Positions 1 through 4,824 of a stretch of DNA of 64,000 nt are shown here, one piece after another. Origin of the DNA: Exiguobacterium sp. s122 (GTDB taxonomy: Bacteria > Bacillota > Bacilli > Exiguobacteriales > Exiguobacteriaceae); assembly GCF_018618475.1 (NCBI RefSeq), contig NZ_JACSMD010000001.1, positions 1,984,001 to 2,048,000 of the forward strand. The letters run 5' to 3'. The position numbers and the translations under genes are program-made. How positions within the stretch are numbered: position 1 is the first letter of the stretch; the number at the start of each line of letters is the position of its first letter. The notes below the pieces were generated by a model. It did no database searches. It saw nothing but the letters and a program-made list of their open reading frames with translations, and was not told the origin of the DNA.

Positions 1-1
1 A

Positions 2-589
2 GTCCCGACACGCGATACGGTCGAACCGTCCGTCTCGGCATTCGTCATGATGGTCGGGTTGAATAAACGCTTGAACCTCGCCCACCACAACGTCTACTTC
101 TCTGACGACTATGAGGCCGAGTTCCGGGCGTTGTTCGACGAAGAGCGTTATGCGGACGAGCCGACGATTTACATCTCAAACTCGTCCCATACGGATCCTG
201 CAATGGGTGAGACCGGGGACAACTTGTTCATCCTCGTCAACGCCCCGGCCCATTTGACCGACATTGATGCTGAAACGTATGAACATTTGATCCGTCGCCG
301 ACTCCGTAAATTCGGAGTCGAGTGGGACGACGCCGACGTCGTCTATCACCATCGCGTCACCCCGCACGATTTGACGCGTGACTTTTATGCGTATTACGGC
401 GCTTTATATGGCACATCCGCTAACTCGAAGAAAGGTGCTTTCTTCCGCCCGTCAGCCCGATCAGAAGACGTCTCCAACATTTGGTTTGCGGGCGGGTCGA
501 CCCATCCGGGCGGTGGCAGTCCGATGGTCACGCTTTCAGGACAGCTAGCCGCTCGGTCGATGTTAGAGGACATACCTCTGACAATTTGA
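2..589 (+). CDS. crtP: CrtP/CrtN-family carotenoid oxidase/desaturase, C-terminal part
   Basis: This is a 3' fragment; the reading frame is open from base 2 and stops at TGA 587-589. The product is an FAD-dependent amine-oxidase-fold enzyme of the CrtI/CrtN/CrtP family. The C-terminal FAD-binding signature reads AGGSTHPGGGSPMVTLSGQ, and the earlier LAHHNVYFSDDY and EPTIYISNSSHTDP segments resemble staphylococcal CrtP (4,4'-diaponeurosporene oxidase, which oxidises the terminal methyl group) more than CrtN. It would act at the membrane on a C30 carotene made by the convergent crtM/crtN genes. No terminator follows the stop; the next one in this direction is at 944-977. Oxidase rather than desaturase activity is inferred from motif likeness only. 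Confidence 0.8.
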   Translation, partial: VPTRDTVEPSVSAFVMMVGLNKRLNLAHHNVYFSDDYEAEFRALFDEERYADEPTIYISNSSHTDPAMGETGDNLFILVNAPAHLTDIDAETYEHLIRRRLRKFGVEWDDADVVYHHRVTPHDLTRDFYAYYGALYGTSANSKKGAFFRPSARSEDVSNIWFAGGSTHPGGGSPMVTLSGQLAARSMLEDIPLTI

Positions 590-616
590 ACATTTTGTGA
601 ACAGAAGATTCGACAC

Positions 617-645
617 TTGTCGACAAGTCTGAGACGTGATAATAT
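617..645 (+). promoter_or_regulatory. Putative promoter of the C-rich hairpin RNA
   Basis: The -35 is TTGTCG (617-622) and the -10 is TAATAT (640-645), separated by 17 bp. Transcription would begin near 652. A perfect 14-bp palindrome, ACTTGTCGACAAGT (615-628), covers the -35 and could be an operator. The fit to sigma-A is good but untested. Confidence 0.5.
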
Positions 646-651
646 CATATT

Positions 652-977
652 CGAGTTCAAGCAGTATTGTAACGTTTGTTACACCTGTAGCGATCGAATG
701 GCTTCCCCGAGCCAATCGCGTTTTGAACTTGTCACACCCGAGAAAAATGATGAGCGAGTTTCCCCACTCGTATGCCGTAGCTGGATCAGCATGCATCTGA
801 TGTTCCCCCTTAGTCCATCAAGCATCCTGTTTCAGCGAAGATGCCCCATCGTTTCATTCCCCATGAGACGAGGCACATCTTTAGGCGTTCATCACAAGCC
901 GATTCGTTCGTTTCCCCGACGAACGAATCACATAACGCTTACACCACTTTTGGTCCCCCGCCAAAAGTGGTTTTTTT
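652..977 (+). ncRNA. Candidate multi-hairpin small RNA with C-rich loops
   Basis: The 420-base gene-free stretch 590-1009 holds a run of hairpins ending in a strong terminator. Visible stems: TGTAAC/GTTACA (668-683); GCGAT-bulge-TGGCT with AGCCA-ATCGC, loop TCCCCG (690-719); CGAGT/ACTCG, loop TTCCCC (755-770); TGATG/CATCA with TTCCCCC in the loop (798-820); an 8-bp stem, loop TCCCC (850-870); an 11-bp perfect stem, loop TTCCCCG (901-929); and a 10-bp terminator stem, loop TCCCCCG, then seven T (944-977). Repeating the same C-rich loop on unrelated stems suggests selection on the loops. Known Firmicutes RNAs with C-rich loops (staphylococcal Rsa RNAs, Listeria LhrC) bind Shine-Dalgarno regions; the same role here is inference. 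Frames crossing the region show no protein-like sequence. It could instead be a long 3' UTR of the crtP-type gene. Confidence 0.6.
944..977 (+). terminator. Intrinsic terminator of the RNA / crtP-type unit
   Basis: A 10-bp stem, CCACTTTTGG with CCAAAAGTGG, encloses the loop TCCCCCG and is followed by T7 (971-977). The T run is on the plus strand only. Confidence 0.9.
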
Positions 978-983
978 ATGCGC

Positions 984-1010
984 AAAAAAACGACCGCTTC
1001 CGCGGCCGTT
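984..1010 (-). terminator. Terminator after crtM
   Basis: Read on the minus strand, ACGGCCGC and GCGGTCGT pair around GGAA and are followed by a T run (complement of A 984-990). It lies directly behind the crtM stop codon. Confidence 0.85.
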
Positions 1011-1849
1011 CACAATCGTGCTAATAGTTTTCCCTTTTGGAACGTCGAGACGTAGGCTCGCTTCGTGAACACGTCATATGCGTTCCCCCGCGCCGCGTCC
1101 AAAATGCCTTCATAGAGAAGGGCCGCCGCCTGTACTGGCTTCCGGCTCGCCGGTGGGTAGAGGTGATGGGGTTCGCGCGCCCGGGTATACAAGAATTCAG
1201 CTCGACGGGCGAGCGTCTCCCAGACATCCTTGAACGCAGGGGTCACTTGTCGTGCGAACAAGTCCGCCTCCGATACACCGAACTCAGCGAGTAGCGTTTG
1301 CGGGAGATAAATCCGGTCCCGGTTCAAGTCTTCGCCGACGTCACGCAAGATGTTCGTCAACTGCATGGCGATGCCAAGGTCGATTGCTCCTTGCTTAAGG
1401 GTCGCCTTCTCCGACGCATCCGGCTCTGGTACGAGAATCGGCAAGAGCATCAAACCGACCGTGCTCGCAGCATAATAGCTATACTGTTCCGTTTCTTCAA
1501 GCGTCGCATACCGCGACTTATGTAAATCCCACTTCATCCCTTCGGCCAACTCAAAGAAAGGCGCGACATCCATGTCGTAGCGATTCCATACATCTCGAAG
1601 CGCGACCCAAAGCGCCCCTTCGACGTATTCGTTTGCCAAAAAGCGATTAAAATCATGCAAAAATTCCGTCAGGCTCGCTTCAGGCCGGTCGGATTCATCG
1701 ACGGCATCGTCAAGCAGACGGCAAAACGTGTAGACTGCCATCACCGCCTGACGGTCCGGTTTGGAGAGCAGAGAGAAGGCCCGATAAAATGTCAACGAGC
1801 CTTTCTTCATGATTTCCTCACATTGACGATACGCTTCTTGTGTCGTCAT
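1010..1849 (-). CDS. crtM: Squalene/phytoene synthase family, dehydrosqualene synthase CrtM
   Basis: The 279-residue product belongs to the trans-isoprenyl head-to-head synthase family. It would condense two farnesyl diphosphates to 4,4'-diapophytoene (C30), the first carotenoid step. Both Mg-diphosphate-binding aspartate motifs are visible: LLDDAVDE near residue 45 and NILRDVGEDL near residue 165. The start ATG has GGAGG six bases upstream and lies inside the 3' end of crtN (32-base overlap), so translation is probably coupled. It is the last gene of the minus-strand crt unit. C30 rather than C40 specificity is inferred from the CrtN/CrtP-type neighbours, not from the synthase sequence alone. 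Confidence 0.9.
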   Translation of the reverse strand: MTTQEAYRQCEEIMKKGSLTFYRAFSLLSKPDRQAVMAVYTFCRLLDDAVDESDRPEASLTEFLHDFNRFLANEYVEGALWVALRDVWNRYDMDVAPFFELAEGMKWDLHKSRYATLEETEQYSYYAASTVGLMLLPILVPEPDASEKATLKQGAIDLGIAMQLTNILRDVGEDLNRDRIYLPQTLLAEFGVSEADLFARQVTPAFKDVWETLARRAEFLYTRAREPHHLYPPASRKPVQAAALLYEGILDAARGNAYDVFTKRAYVSTFQKGKLLARL

Positions 1850-3293
1850 AGAATGCCTCCATTTCTTCTTCCATTCTTTTCACGAGTAGCTCGGACCCAA
1901 TCATGACAATTGGTACACCCCCACACGGGTGTACCGAGGCACCGACAGCAAAGAGCCTCTCGATGTGCGCATATGGCCGGGCTTGCGGCTTGAATGCTGC
2001 CGATTGCGATAGTTTTGGTGCGATGCCGAAACTGCCGCCTTCAAAGAGACCGAATCGCTCCGCGTCCATCGGTGTCCGAAGTTTCATCTCGGTGACACGC
2101 TCACTGAAGCCCGGTACGAGCGTCTCAAGCCGGCTGACGAGGTGATCGATCGTCCCGTTTGTCTCGAAATCAGAGCGCTCGAGCTTTCGCGGGACGGGAA
2201 CGAGAACGTAGAGCACACTCGTGCCTTCTGGTGCGAGCGTCGGGTCGATTTGAGACGGGTTGAACGTATACATCGCTGGGTACTCGCTCAGTTTACCATC
2301 TTCAAAGATGGTTCGCATCGATCCCGCAAAATCGTTCGGTAAGTCGAATTGATGTACCGGCAAATCAAGCTCACCGTTAACCGTGAAATACAACAGGAGC
2401 GTCGCGCTCGATGGTTCGTACGTTTTCGGTTTGACGCCATCGATGAGCCGTTCCATAAGCGGGAAATCCCCGTTCACGACGACCGCATCGTGTGAGTCGA
2501 TGACGCCGTCAACGACGACCGCGTTCGCCCGCCCCTCTTCCACGCAGACACGCTCGACGTTTGCGTTCAAGTTGAACTGCACACCACGACGTCGTAGCTC
2601 TTGTTCTAGTTTCGTCGCGAGCGAGAAATATCCTCCTTTGACGTACCAGACCCCTTCCTCTTGTTCACGATACGGGATAAGTCCGTAAAGTGAAGGGGTG
2701 GCATACGGGTTTCCCCCGATATAGAGTGTCTGTAAGCTATACGCGACGCGTAGACGCTCATCTTTGAAGAAGCGTTTCATGTTCTCATGTGCCGTCTCAT
2801 ACGCTTTTAGACGCATGAGTAGCATCAACAATCTCGGTTCAAACAAATCCGATTTCGCTTTATAGCCTCGGTCCAAAAACGAATCAAAGCCGATTTGATA
2901 TTCGTTACGCTTTTGTGCCATATATCGCCGGAACGCGTCGCCTTCCCCGAACATCCGCTCCACTTCTTCCGCTTGCCGTTCGATGTCGCGGTATTTATAG
3001 AACGTCGTCCCGTCCTCATAGCGGAGTCGATAGAGTGGGTCAATTTCAAGGAGCTCGACCGCCGCATCCGGAAGCCCCGCCTCTTTCAATTGTTGCTTCA
3101 ATTTCGAAGGCAACAACACGATCGTCGGTCCTTCATCGACGCGGGCGCCATTGTCAAACTCGACATAGTTGAGTCGGCCTCCGACGCGCGCTTCTTTTTC
3201 ATAAATCGTGACCTGTAAGGATGGATATTTATGCGTCAATAAAAGCGCCGCATATAACGAGCCGATTCCGGCCCCGACAAATCCAATCTTCAT
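1818..3293 (-). CDS. crtN: 4,4'-diapophytoene desaturase-like CrtN
   Basis: This is a 491-residue FAD-dependent carotene desaturase. The N-terminal dinucleotide fold reads GFVGAGIGSLYAALLL, the FAD-ribose part is YEKEARVGGRL, and the C-terminal FAD signature is VGASVHPCGGVPIVM. The segment LQTLYIGGNPYATPSLYGL closely resembles staphylococcal CrtN, so among the three paralogues here it is the best candidate for dehydrogenating diapophytoene. It overlaps the upstream paralogue by an ATGA junction (3290-3293) and the downstream crtM by 32 bases, forming one operon with both. The number of desaturation steps cannot be read from sequence. Confidence 0.83.
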   Translation of the reverse strand: MKIGFVGAGIGSLYAALLLTHKYPSLQVTIYEKEARVGGRLNYVEFDNGARVDEGPTIVLLPSKLKQQLKEAGLPDAAVELLEIDPLYRLRYEDGTTFYKYRDIERQAEEVERMFGEGDAFRRYMAQKRNEYQIGFDSFLDRGYKAKSDLFEPRLLMLLMRLKAYETAHENMKRFFKDERLRVAYSLQTLYIGGNPYATPSLYGLIPYREQEEGVWYVKGGYFSLATKLEQELRRRGVQFNLNANVERVCVEEGRANAVVVDGVIDSHDAVVVNGDFPLMERLIDGVKPKTYEPSSATLLLYFTVNGELDLPVHQFDLPNDFAGSMRTIFEDGKLSEYPAMYTFNPSQIDPTLAPEGTSVLYVLVPVPRKLERSDFETNGTIDHLVSRLETLVPGFSERVTEMKLRTPMDAERFGLFEGGSFGIAPKLSQSAAFKPQARPYAHIERLFAVGASVHPCGGVPIVMIGSELLVKRMEEEMEAFYDDTRSVSSM

Positions 3294-4780
3294 TGGCCGA
3301 CACCTGCCCGGTCACGAAGCAAATCGGCCGTGATACGCGCCGACTCAAAGATGGTCGGCAATCCGCTTCCAGGATGTGTCCCGCCACCGACGAGCCAGAC
3401 GTGGTCGAGTTCTTCAAATTGATTGTGCGGACGGAAGTACATCATCTGCGACAAGTTATGTCCAAGATTGAACGTCGCCCCTTCATATACGCCGAACGCT
3501 TCCCAGTCTTTCGGGGTGAGCGCTTGTTTCACTTCGATGTGGTCTCGAATACCTGTATACGGGGAGCGGTTCTCGAGCGCGTCCAGTACTTGTTCAGTCA
3601 TCTTCGCCTCGAGCGTTTCCCACGGTAAGTTCGATAAGTTGTTCGGCACCGGCACGAGCACGTATAGCGACGATTTGCCGGCTGGTGCGAGCGTTGCATC
3701 GATCTTCGAGGCGTTCTGAACATAGAAAGAGAAATCATCGCTCAATTTCAAGTCTTGGGTCATCTCTTTAACGTTTCGCTCGTAGTCGTCGGCGAAGTGA
3801 ATCGTATGGTGGCCGACGTCATATAAGCGGTCGAGTCCGAGATAGAGCATGAACGTCGAGCAGGAGTACCGTTTCTTCTGCAACTGTTTCGGGCTCCAGC
3901 GCGACAACGTGCCAGCTGGGACGAGTGACGTCATCGCATGGGCGAAATCGGCCCCGATAATCACTTCATCAAAGGCATAATGGACGTTGTTCGCGACGAG
4001 TCCGTTCACGCGCTTCCCGTCAAGCAGTAACCGATCGACCCCTTCACCGAGACGGATCGATCCGCCTTCTTCTTCGATGACGCGCGCCATCGCCGTGCAC
4101 AATTGATTCACGCCACCAATTGGGTGATGAACGCCGTATGCGTGTTCCATGTACGACAAAATCGAGAAGCCGCCCGGACAGTCCCAGGCCGACATGCCGA
4201 GGTATTTCGCTTGGAACGTGAAGGCGTATTTCAACTCTTCACTCGTAAAATATTCCGACAAGACGTCATAGAGCGACTTGCCAATCGAAAGGAAGGGTAA
4301 CGCCTTTAAAACGCGAAGCGAAACGTAATCAGTTAGCCGGTCGTGCGCCGTCTGAAGCACTGGCATTAACTTCGAGAGCTTGATGGCCTGCTCCGCCATG
4401 AACCGCTCATACCCTTCCCCGTTGCCTGGGAATTGTGCCTCAATCGCCTTGAACATCTCGTCGCGGTCCGTCGTCATCGACAGGACACGACGGCCCTGGT
4501 CGAAATATAAATCATACATCGGCTCGAGCCGTTTCATTTCGACGTAGTCGTGCAAGTTACGGCCCGTCTCCTCAAAGATTTCTTCTAAAATATAAGGCAT
4601 ATTCAAAAAAGTCGGGCCACGATCGAACGCGAACTCCCCGACTTGTAGACGTGACGTCCTACCCCCGACGAACGGTTGTTTTTCGAACACGGTAACGGAC
4701 ACACCACGGCTCGCCAAAAGCATGGCTGCGGCGAGGCCTCCTGGTCCGGCACCGATGACTGCAACTCTTTTTTCCGACAC
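3290..4780 (-). CDS. CrtI/CrtN-family carotenoid desaturase paralogue
   Basis: This 496-residue protein of the phytoene-desaturase family has an N-terminal VAVIGAGPGGLAAAMLL dinucleotide fold, VFEKQPFVGGRT, and a C-terminal VGGGTHPGSGLPTIFESA FAD signature. It is first in the minus-strand crt operon. GTG at 4780 is preferred because AGGGAG sits nine bases upstream; a TTG three codons earlier has no spacing from that site. Clusters with three such paralogues (CrtNa/Nb/Nc types) occur in C30-carotenoid Bacilli, where they split desaturation and terminal oxidation. Which step this one performs is uncertain, so no symbol is given. Confidence 0.82.
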   Translation of the reverse strand: MSEKRVAVIGAGPGGLAAAMLLASRGVSVTVFEKQPFVGGRTSRLQVGEFAFDRGPTFLNMPYILEEIFEETGRNLHDYVEMKRLEPMYDLYFDQGRRVLSMTTDRDEMFKAIEAQFPGNGEGYERFMAEQAIKLSKLMPVLQTAHDRLTDYVSLRVLKALPFLSIGKSLYDVLSEYFTSEELKYAFTFQAKYLGMSAWDCPGGFSILSYMEHAYGVHHPIGGVNQLCTAMARVIEEEGGSIRLGEGVDRLLLDGKRVNGLVANNVHYAFDEVIIGADFAHAMTSLVPAGTLSRWSPKQLQKKRYSCSTFMLYLGLDRLYDVGHHTIHFADDYERNVKEMTQDLKLSDDFSFYVQNASKIDATLAPAGKSSLYVLVPVPNNLSNLPWETLEAKMTEQVLDALENRSPYTGIRDHIEVKQALTPKDWEAFGVYEGATFNLGHNLSQMMYFRPHNQFEELDHVWLVGGGTHPGSGLPTIFESARITADLLRDRAGVGQ

Positions 4781-4824
4781 GTTGAACAACTCCCTATGTG
4801 AATAGTCTCTTATGCTTCTACTTC

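Follow-up and report, generated by a model that had tools for sequence, protein, structure and literature searches.

A conserved RNA gene of Exiguobacteraceae with six C-rich apical loops, predicted to pair with Shine-Dalgarno regions of oxidative-metabolism mRNAs

Does the gap upstream of crtM in Exiguobacterium sp. s122 encode a small RNA, and what could be read by the C-rich sequence that its hairpins display again and again? The question was raised by positions 652 to 977 of the window (the whole stretch of 64,000 nucleotides analyzed here), for which a multivalent regulator directed against Shine-Dalgarno (SD) sequences, or a protein sponge, had been put forward in the original prediction. 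The computation revealed an RNA gene that is structured and conserved and whose loops hardly vary, with the best complementarity in the genome to the SDs of two TCA-cycle genes, and with a promoter box that is shared with other genes. Its most likely role is to lower the expression of energy-metabolism genes by binding their ribosome-binding sites.

The stretch 652-977 (plus strand) has the appearance of an independent, structured RNA gene, presumably transcribed from its own promoter to its own terminator, and its ends are placed accordingly. Upstream, a frame at 2-589 (+), whose stop ends at 589, is presumably desaturase-like, and its 195-aa fragment gave no match in Pfam; downstream lies crtM (1010-1849, minus strand), of the phytoene/squalene-synthase type (PF00494). 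Positions 1-4789 as a whole have the aspect of a carotenoid-type cluster, with the desaturase-like frames 2-589 (+), 1818-3293 (-) and 3290-4789 (-) around crtM, the last two of them matching PF01593. The promoter announced in front of the RNA was located by eye as a sigma-A type TTGTCG-17-TAATAT at 617-645 (-35 at 617-622, -10 at 640-645; plus strand), with an automated scan giving an overlapping register (620-648), and TTGTAC-17-TACGAT is found at the equivalent position of the sister genus. The -35 region also holds a perfect 14-bp palindrome, ACTTGTCGACAAGT (615-628), which is kept in only part of the genus. At the other end, the intrinsic terminator with seven T's that had been predicted to close the RNA was confirmed: hairpin F (943-977, plus strand; loop CCCCC at 955-959) has a perfect 11-bp stem followed by a T run at 971-977, and a terminator scan places the hairpin at 943-971.

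The minimum free energy (MFE) of 652-977 (plus strand) is -118 kcal/mol, versus -71 +/- 5 in 100 dinucleotide shuffles (z -9.3). The fold begins with a three-way domain (652-731) closed by pairing of 652-660 with 723-731, and all six C-loop hairpins were found, in the sequence and in the fold, where they had been claimed. In addition to F these are, all on the plus strand, hairpin A (690-719; TTCCCC at 703-708, with CTTCCCCGAG in and around the loop), B (754-771; loop TTCCCC at 760-765), C (798-820; loop TTCCCCCTTAGTC, with TTCCCCC at 803-809), D (851-869; loop TCCCC at 858-862) and E (901-929; loop TCCCC at 913-917). The RNA has seven runs of at least four C and none of at least four G. Six of the C-runs are apical, under a rule by which no more than one base at either end of the run may pair; the seventh (CCCC, 844-847, plus strand) sits in an internal loop and is missing in 7 of the 19 same-genus sequences. 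Six apical C-runs are more than chance would give, in such a way that the number was reached by none of 400 dinucleotide shuffles (mean 0.5, maximum 3) and by none of 400 shuffles that kept the C-runs whole (mean 1.2, maximum 5). MFE folds of 38 homologues show six or seven apical C-runs in 37 of them and five in the remaining one (L009), whose loop D reads TTCCCT, with TCCCT at the TCCCC position.

Conservation of the RNA was studied in the two genera of the family. In blastn searches the region was found in 19/19 genomes of the same genus (genus 1), at 87-100% identity, and the 19 genomes of the sister genus (genus 2) gave short matches only. With crtM as anchor, a homologue of roughly 325-365 nt was located in the same crtM-adjacent gap in 19/19 sister genomes. 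Its body is mostly different, and it keeps CGAGTTCAA at the 5' end, CTTCCCCGAG, GTTCCCCCTTAG and, on stems that have been replaced, C-loops. Loop C is the most conserved, with GTTCCCCCTTAG identical in 38/38 homologues, and CTTCCCCGAG of hairpin A is identical across the aligned sequences of both genera. Loop B is reduced to CCC in 18/19 sister genomes (CCCC in L061), and an additional CCCC appears in their 5'-most hairpin, thus the six C-loops are not exactly the same six. Invariant columns make up 95% (genus 1) and 100% (genus 2) of the C-runs with their leading T's, 82% and 66% of the other stem positions, and 59% and 19% of the remainder.

The original prediction had made its case depend on conservation and covariation, and both were detected: the loops are conserved in the homologues of both genera, and changes on the two sides of the stems are coupled. 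In alignment A1, 99.5% of the cells are paired and 9/103 pairs changed on both sides (shuffled mean 4.4, 0/500 as high), and in alignment A2 the values are 98.9% and 18/71 pairs (shuffled 7.2, 0/500 as high), counts that are to be read with the kinship among the sequences, which inflates the shuffle test, and with the fact that the structures are favoured over slid controls because they were derived from the same alignments. Further pair types were not raised in A2 (99/500 shuffles as high). In A1, both-sided changes affect 3/7 pairs of hairpin D and 2/12 of hairpin E. In the sister genus, 3/4 pairs of the hairpin B stem changed on both sides, and the stem of hairpin F was replaced with TCCCC retained. 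Judged from these alignments, the stems covary within each genus, and the C-loops persist while most stems and linkers are replaced between genera. Loops held tighter than stems would make this RNA a clean natural case of selection on a displayed anti-SD sequence.

A covariance model of the 5' domain (R1; 652-731), built from 15 Exiguobacteraceae RNA sequences, matched 38/38 Exiguobacteraceae genomes with E at or below 5e-13, and in the proposed search between the crt genes a homologue stands at the same crtN/crtM site in all of them. In 360 other genomes of the class (taken as Bacilli), searched with stricter filters, R1 gave two weak matches (0.04-0.06, best E 0.037). There is one strong copy of the RNA per genome; a weak second R1 match in one genome (G006:C14:36140-36183, E 0.019) is probably due to chance. 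A collection of species genomes was also scanned for CGAGTTCAAR-N30-55-CTTCCCCGAG, which gave 116 stretches, 24 of them followed by the loop C core. Among the 80 that bear titles, the core was present in all 16 from Exiguobacterium and absent from the other 64; 8 further core-bearing stretches are 100% identical to homologues already in the set, and the last 28 are without the core.

The RNA had not been recognized as a named family, in agreement with the Rfam scan of the window, where no family reached its cut-off (0 gathering-score matches); among the 4227 models, of which LhrC is not known to be one, the best E near the RNA was 0.95, for a family different from LhrC. The low-score names CRISPR-DR54, mir-67, CRISPR-DR10 and P14 were taken as chance. 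Membership in RoxS/RsaE was rejected, with no RF01820 match in 500-1100 at E up to 10 and none at the sister-genus loci of this RNA, L061 and L076, at E up to 0.1. A protein-coding reading was rejected as well: the longest closed ORF varies between homologues from 9 to 79 aa on the plus strand and from 20 to 99 aa on the minus strand, and the alignment gaps are, by eye, not multiples of three. Titles and abstract openings of the open-access literature yielded no characterized small RNA of Exiguobacterium; in the excerpts seen, one paper merely counts predicted small RNAs (PMC10837837), and in an omics study of E. antarcticum the ncRNA reads were filtered out (PMC4247613). The RNA looks like an undescribed small RNA, and would represent a new RNA family, present in 38/38 Exiguobacteraceae genomes; none of the other genomes searched gave a confident match.

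In order to know what the loops could read, complementarity to gene starts was analyzed. Side matches in the blastn searches run antisense to the start of sucC (G000, the genome of the window, and G001), with an E of only 0.48 per genome, and to that of a membrane gene which we take to be YuiB-like (G009, G013). In both G013 and G009 the latter start (L020, L021) is imperfectly complementary to hairpin C over about 25 nt, and its gene had no match in NCBIfam. The complement of loop C, GGACTAAGGGGGAAC, was then located in the whole genome at no more than one mismatch in 15, and only three places were found: the RNA itself, the SD of sucC and the SD of sdhC. Allowing up to three mismatches gave 40 places, no more than the 48 of the reversed pattern, so that the signal is limited to the best sites. 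The identity of sucC is given by an above-cut-off match to the NCBIfam succinate-CoA ligase beta family, and that of sdhC by a match of its first 90 aa to the SdhC b558 family of NCBIfam at 69 bits (cut-off 96). The 9-mer that complements loop C (GUUCCCCCUUAG) is UAAGGGGGA, which serves as SD of sucC, sucD, odhB, etfA, fadE and the proline dehydrogenase gene; AAGGGGGAA, also complementary to the loop, is that of sdhC.

Duplex energies were ranked against 465 gene starts, taken from 464 kb of the same genome by a simple ORF-plus-SD rule. The duplex of loop C with sucC (-31.3 kcal/mol) was better than those of all 465 starts, that with sdhC was matched or beaten by 3 and that with ribF by 6. Proline dehydrogenase ranked 4 and odhB 10 (both belong to the sample and are counted in their own ranks), etfA 6, and sucD (29) and fadE (53) were weaker; TAAGGGGG is present in 4/465 starts. 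Both main sites are kept, with TAAGGGGGA in the sucC leader in 38/38 genomes and AAGGGGG at sdhC in 38/38 (30 + 8, from two scans). The match of loop C to sucC covers 14 nt ungapped in G000 and about 9-10 nt, by eye, in the sister genus. The duplex reaches -28 to -31 kcal/mol in 19/19 same-genus genomes; in the sister genus, where 11/19 genomes were scored, the values are only -18 to -20 kcal/mol, a weakening with no compensating change. The conserved complementarity may partly reflect conservation of the SD, because C-rich loops pair with any G-rich SD.

The sucC leader (for example L211) carries a further conserved G-run, AAAGGGG, ahead of TAAGGGGGA, the two being present together in 38/38 genomes, and two runs of at least four G were seen in only 4/465 sampled starts, which makes this leader a possible double site for small RNAs. 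The first G-run has an 8-nt complement to CCCCUUUA of a RoxS-like RNA encoded elsewhere in the genome (see below), a pairing that ranks only 65 of 465. One idea would be that two small RNAs bind this leader, loop C at the second G-run and the RoxS-like RNA at the first.

The class of genes that start with the same SD was also analyzed. The pattern TAAGGGGGA-N3-11-RTG occurs at 27 places of the genome, versus 5 for the reversed pattern; two rows come from the RNA itself, where a 77-aa minus-strand ORF (L354/L355) begins at the loop C complement and was discarded as self, and leaving out one ORF of 9 aa (L337) gave a list of 24. Seven of these were counted as oxidative (sucC, sucD, odhB, proline dehydrogenase, FadE, EtfA and an HdrC-like Fe-S protein); RibF, Nfu-N, superoxide dismutase, two PTS IIC-type, PurE- and PurC-type proteins, PheT, FlgK and others were not. 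In a genome of the sister genus (G023) the pattern was found at 42 places, versus 6 reversed, which after removal of two overlapping rows made 40, one of them (L426) of only 37 aa. Eleven of the 40 were counted as oxidative, and this list includes sucC, sucD and etfA (by blastp to the first list) and, by NCBIfam/Pfam, an E2 component, a Leu/Glu-type dehydrogenase, 3-oxoacid CoA-transferase B, a thiolase, haem-copper oxidase subunit I, cytochrome c551, GcvPA and a pyridine-nucleotide oxidoreductase taken as NDH-like. As a control we used the starts with TAAGGAGGA in the genome of the window, for which 50 of 52 places were read (one overlapping row and a place on C20 were left out) and four ORFs under 40 aa (L439, L440, L442, L450) were dropped, so that 2/46 were counted as oxidative (an E1 component and an AMP-binding ligase). 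One-sided Fisher tests gave 0.006 for 7/24 and 0.003 for 11/40, both lists, that of G023 included, being set against this same own-genome control, and the classes being assigned by eye and not blind, with 24/24, 15/40 and 3/46 proteins put through a family search or blastp comparison (the latter through the family library) and the other control proteins judged from their sequence. With this reading, matching-SD starts look enriched for genes of the TCA cycle, beta-oxidation and respiration in one genome per genus.

The other loops showed preferences of their own. Against the same 465 starts, loop E ranked 0 with sucD, 4 with fadE and 8 with sdhC, loop B ranked 5 with odhB, loop D 6 with fadE and loop F 4 with sucC, which is a hint of a division of labour among loops. 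A role of loop E as a sucD-specific reader was considered and, as a conserved interaction, rejected: it is the best of 465 here and weaker in genomes with CATTTCCCC, and this strong pairing, the only one of these that was compared across genomes, weakens in part of the genus.

The role of the region upstream of the promoter was also studied. A direct repeat, TTTGAACATTTTGTGAAC (585-602, plus strand), lies 49 nt before the presumed start of the RNA, and we take it to be an OmpR-family or ResD-like box, going by a consensus unconfirmed by literature. With no more than one mismatch, TKTGAACRTTWTGTGAAY stands 48-49 nt upstream of the RNA in 38/38 genomes, from whose sequences the pattern itself was built. 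In the genome of the window the next-best place is TGTGAACATTTTGCGAAC (1 mismatch), 128 nt before cydA (L452:2-1372, minus strand), whose product is cytochrome bd oxidase subunit I (PF01654). Three of the five other places at up to two mismatches fall within reading frames; four of the five have two mismatches, three inside reading frames and one before an amino-acid-carrier-type gene. At three mismatches the box is found 50 nt before the RoxS-like RNA and also before a formate/nitrite transporter, and up to that limit there are 47 places, versus 21 for the reversed pattern.

This RoxS-like RNA was detected with RF01820, which gave matches below the cut-off in 23/38 genomes, 19 of them in genus 1, and above it in 0/38. 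In G000 the match lies at C1:1741089-1741224 (minus strand; L086), with 36 bits (cut-off 79). As this is a separate locus, the genome carries a likely RoxS and, apart from it, the RNA of the window. When six such loci were read (L084-L089), the five from genus 1 were, by eye, clearly one family. The one in G000 has TGTGAAATCAATCACAA at its start, presumably a Rex-like site, and three apical C-runs, one of them in the terminator; own C-loops seem to be a trait of this RNA in Exiguobacterium (L085-L089). The box 50 nt before it has 3-4 mismatches in the five genus-1 loci and is absent (6 mismatches) in L084. A box common to our RNA, cydA and the RoxS-like RNA suggests low-oxygen control by a ResD-type regulator, and the guess is supported by RoxS being ResDE-dependent in B. 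subtilis, according to the excerpts consulted (PMC5419742).

The C-loops could also serve under another signal, such as iron, cold or carbon, with other main targets, the TCA signal being then a by-product of G-rich SDs. We consider this unlikely: the iron-sparing C-rich RNAs FsrA and IsrR do share target enzymes, and pur, PTS and pheT genes are also found among the TAAGGGGGA starts, but the upstream box is shared with cydA and the RoxS-like RNA, and inspection of 565-660 by eye showed no Fur-type box.

The ResD-type reading can be put as a mechanism. Under oxygen or redox stress, a ResD-type response regulator would probably switch the RNA on. Acting in trans, the RNA would then pair through its C-rich apical loops with the G-rich SDs of oxidative-metabolism mRNAs, loop C being the main reader and the other loops adding further or weaker contacts with SDs, by which several messages could be held by one RNA. 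Pairing at the SD would presumably repress translation; repression is assumed here from RoxS, FsrA and IsrR. We regard a six-loop anti-SD repressor of oxidative metabolism under ResD-type control as probable, its transcription, pairing, repressive effect, regulator and multivalency all being deduced from sequence. Between the two options of the original prediction, the multivalent anti-SD regulator, with its putative multivalency, is the reading best supported by conserved loops on covarying stems.

A stronger version can be proposed only tentatively, in which the stems are mere spacers of a hexavalent array whose loops hold several oxidative-metabolism mRNAs at once, next to RoxS and under the same oxygen-responsive control. 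OdhB, SucCD and SdhC catalyze consecutive TCA steps, and if the array existed a whole pathway would be silenced as a unit and not message by message. With this RNA it could readily be examined whether a large number of loops allows one molecule to bind multiple targets, and how TCA-cycle activity is lowered as oxygen falls.

As for the other option, the repeated UCCCC loops would titrate a C-rich-RNA-binding protein, in the way that GGA-loop RNAs titrate CsrA. Near-identical loops on unrelated, changing stems are the architecture of CsrB/RsmZ-type RNAs, and loops held while stems covary would also be expected of a sponge. The invariant flank of loop C (GTTCCCCCTTAG) is nevertheless longer than a repeated protein motif needs, and its match to the SDs of sucC and sdhC is left unexplained; to our knowledge, no protein of this kind has been described in Firmicutes, and we consider a sponge quite unlikely. 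That the stretch is the 3' UTR of the preceding desaturase-like gene, or a crt-cluster cis-element lacking any role in trans, is highly improbable, since the RNA does adjoin crtM in the genomes searched but has its own conserved promoter, its loops are complementary to remote genes, and in one genome (G011) a transposase frame (L081:1843-2775, minus strand; HTH_38 and rve domains, presumably IS30-like) separates the terminator from crtM and leaves the RNA intact.

We compared the anti-SD regulator proposed here with known systems. CsrB/RsmZ-type sponges also repeat a short motif across many apical loops; they differ in using GGA as motif and in having a protein as target. LhrC of Listeria is closer in use, as each RNA employs several UCCC stretches against SDs, and several C-rich stretches per RNA are found here too. 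LhrC is described, in the excerpts consulted, as multicopy, LisRK-linked and related to cell-envelope stress, whereas our RNA has one strong copy per genome. FsrA and IsrR, which were compared by description and, for sequence, through the Rfam scan, direct C-rich motifs against the SDs of TCA and Fe-S enzymes, and both differ in being Fur-controlled; in the excerpts consulted, IsrR has C-rich stretches in loops, three C-rich regions and genus-wide conservation (PMC9410917). Our RNA has six C-loops instead of three C-rich regions, and like FsrA and IsrR it has a loop complementary to the sdhC SD, one of its two non-self places at one mismatch. RoxS/RsaE (RF01820) binds the sucCD SD and is controlled by ResDE and Rex (PMC5419742), and its overexpression lowers sucC, sucD, sdhC and odhAB (PMC10433868), in the excerpts of both papers. 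The RNA of the window is much larger, with about 326 nt and six C-loops versus 112 positions in the RF01820 model, and inspection of its start by eye showed no Rex-like site. The likeness is one of mechanism only: single-stranded C-rich regions of RoxS/RsaE bind, in those excerpts, the SDs of sucCD and other TCA genes, and a C-rich region complementary to the sucC SD is displayed by our RNA as well.
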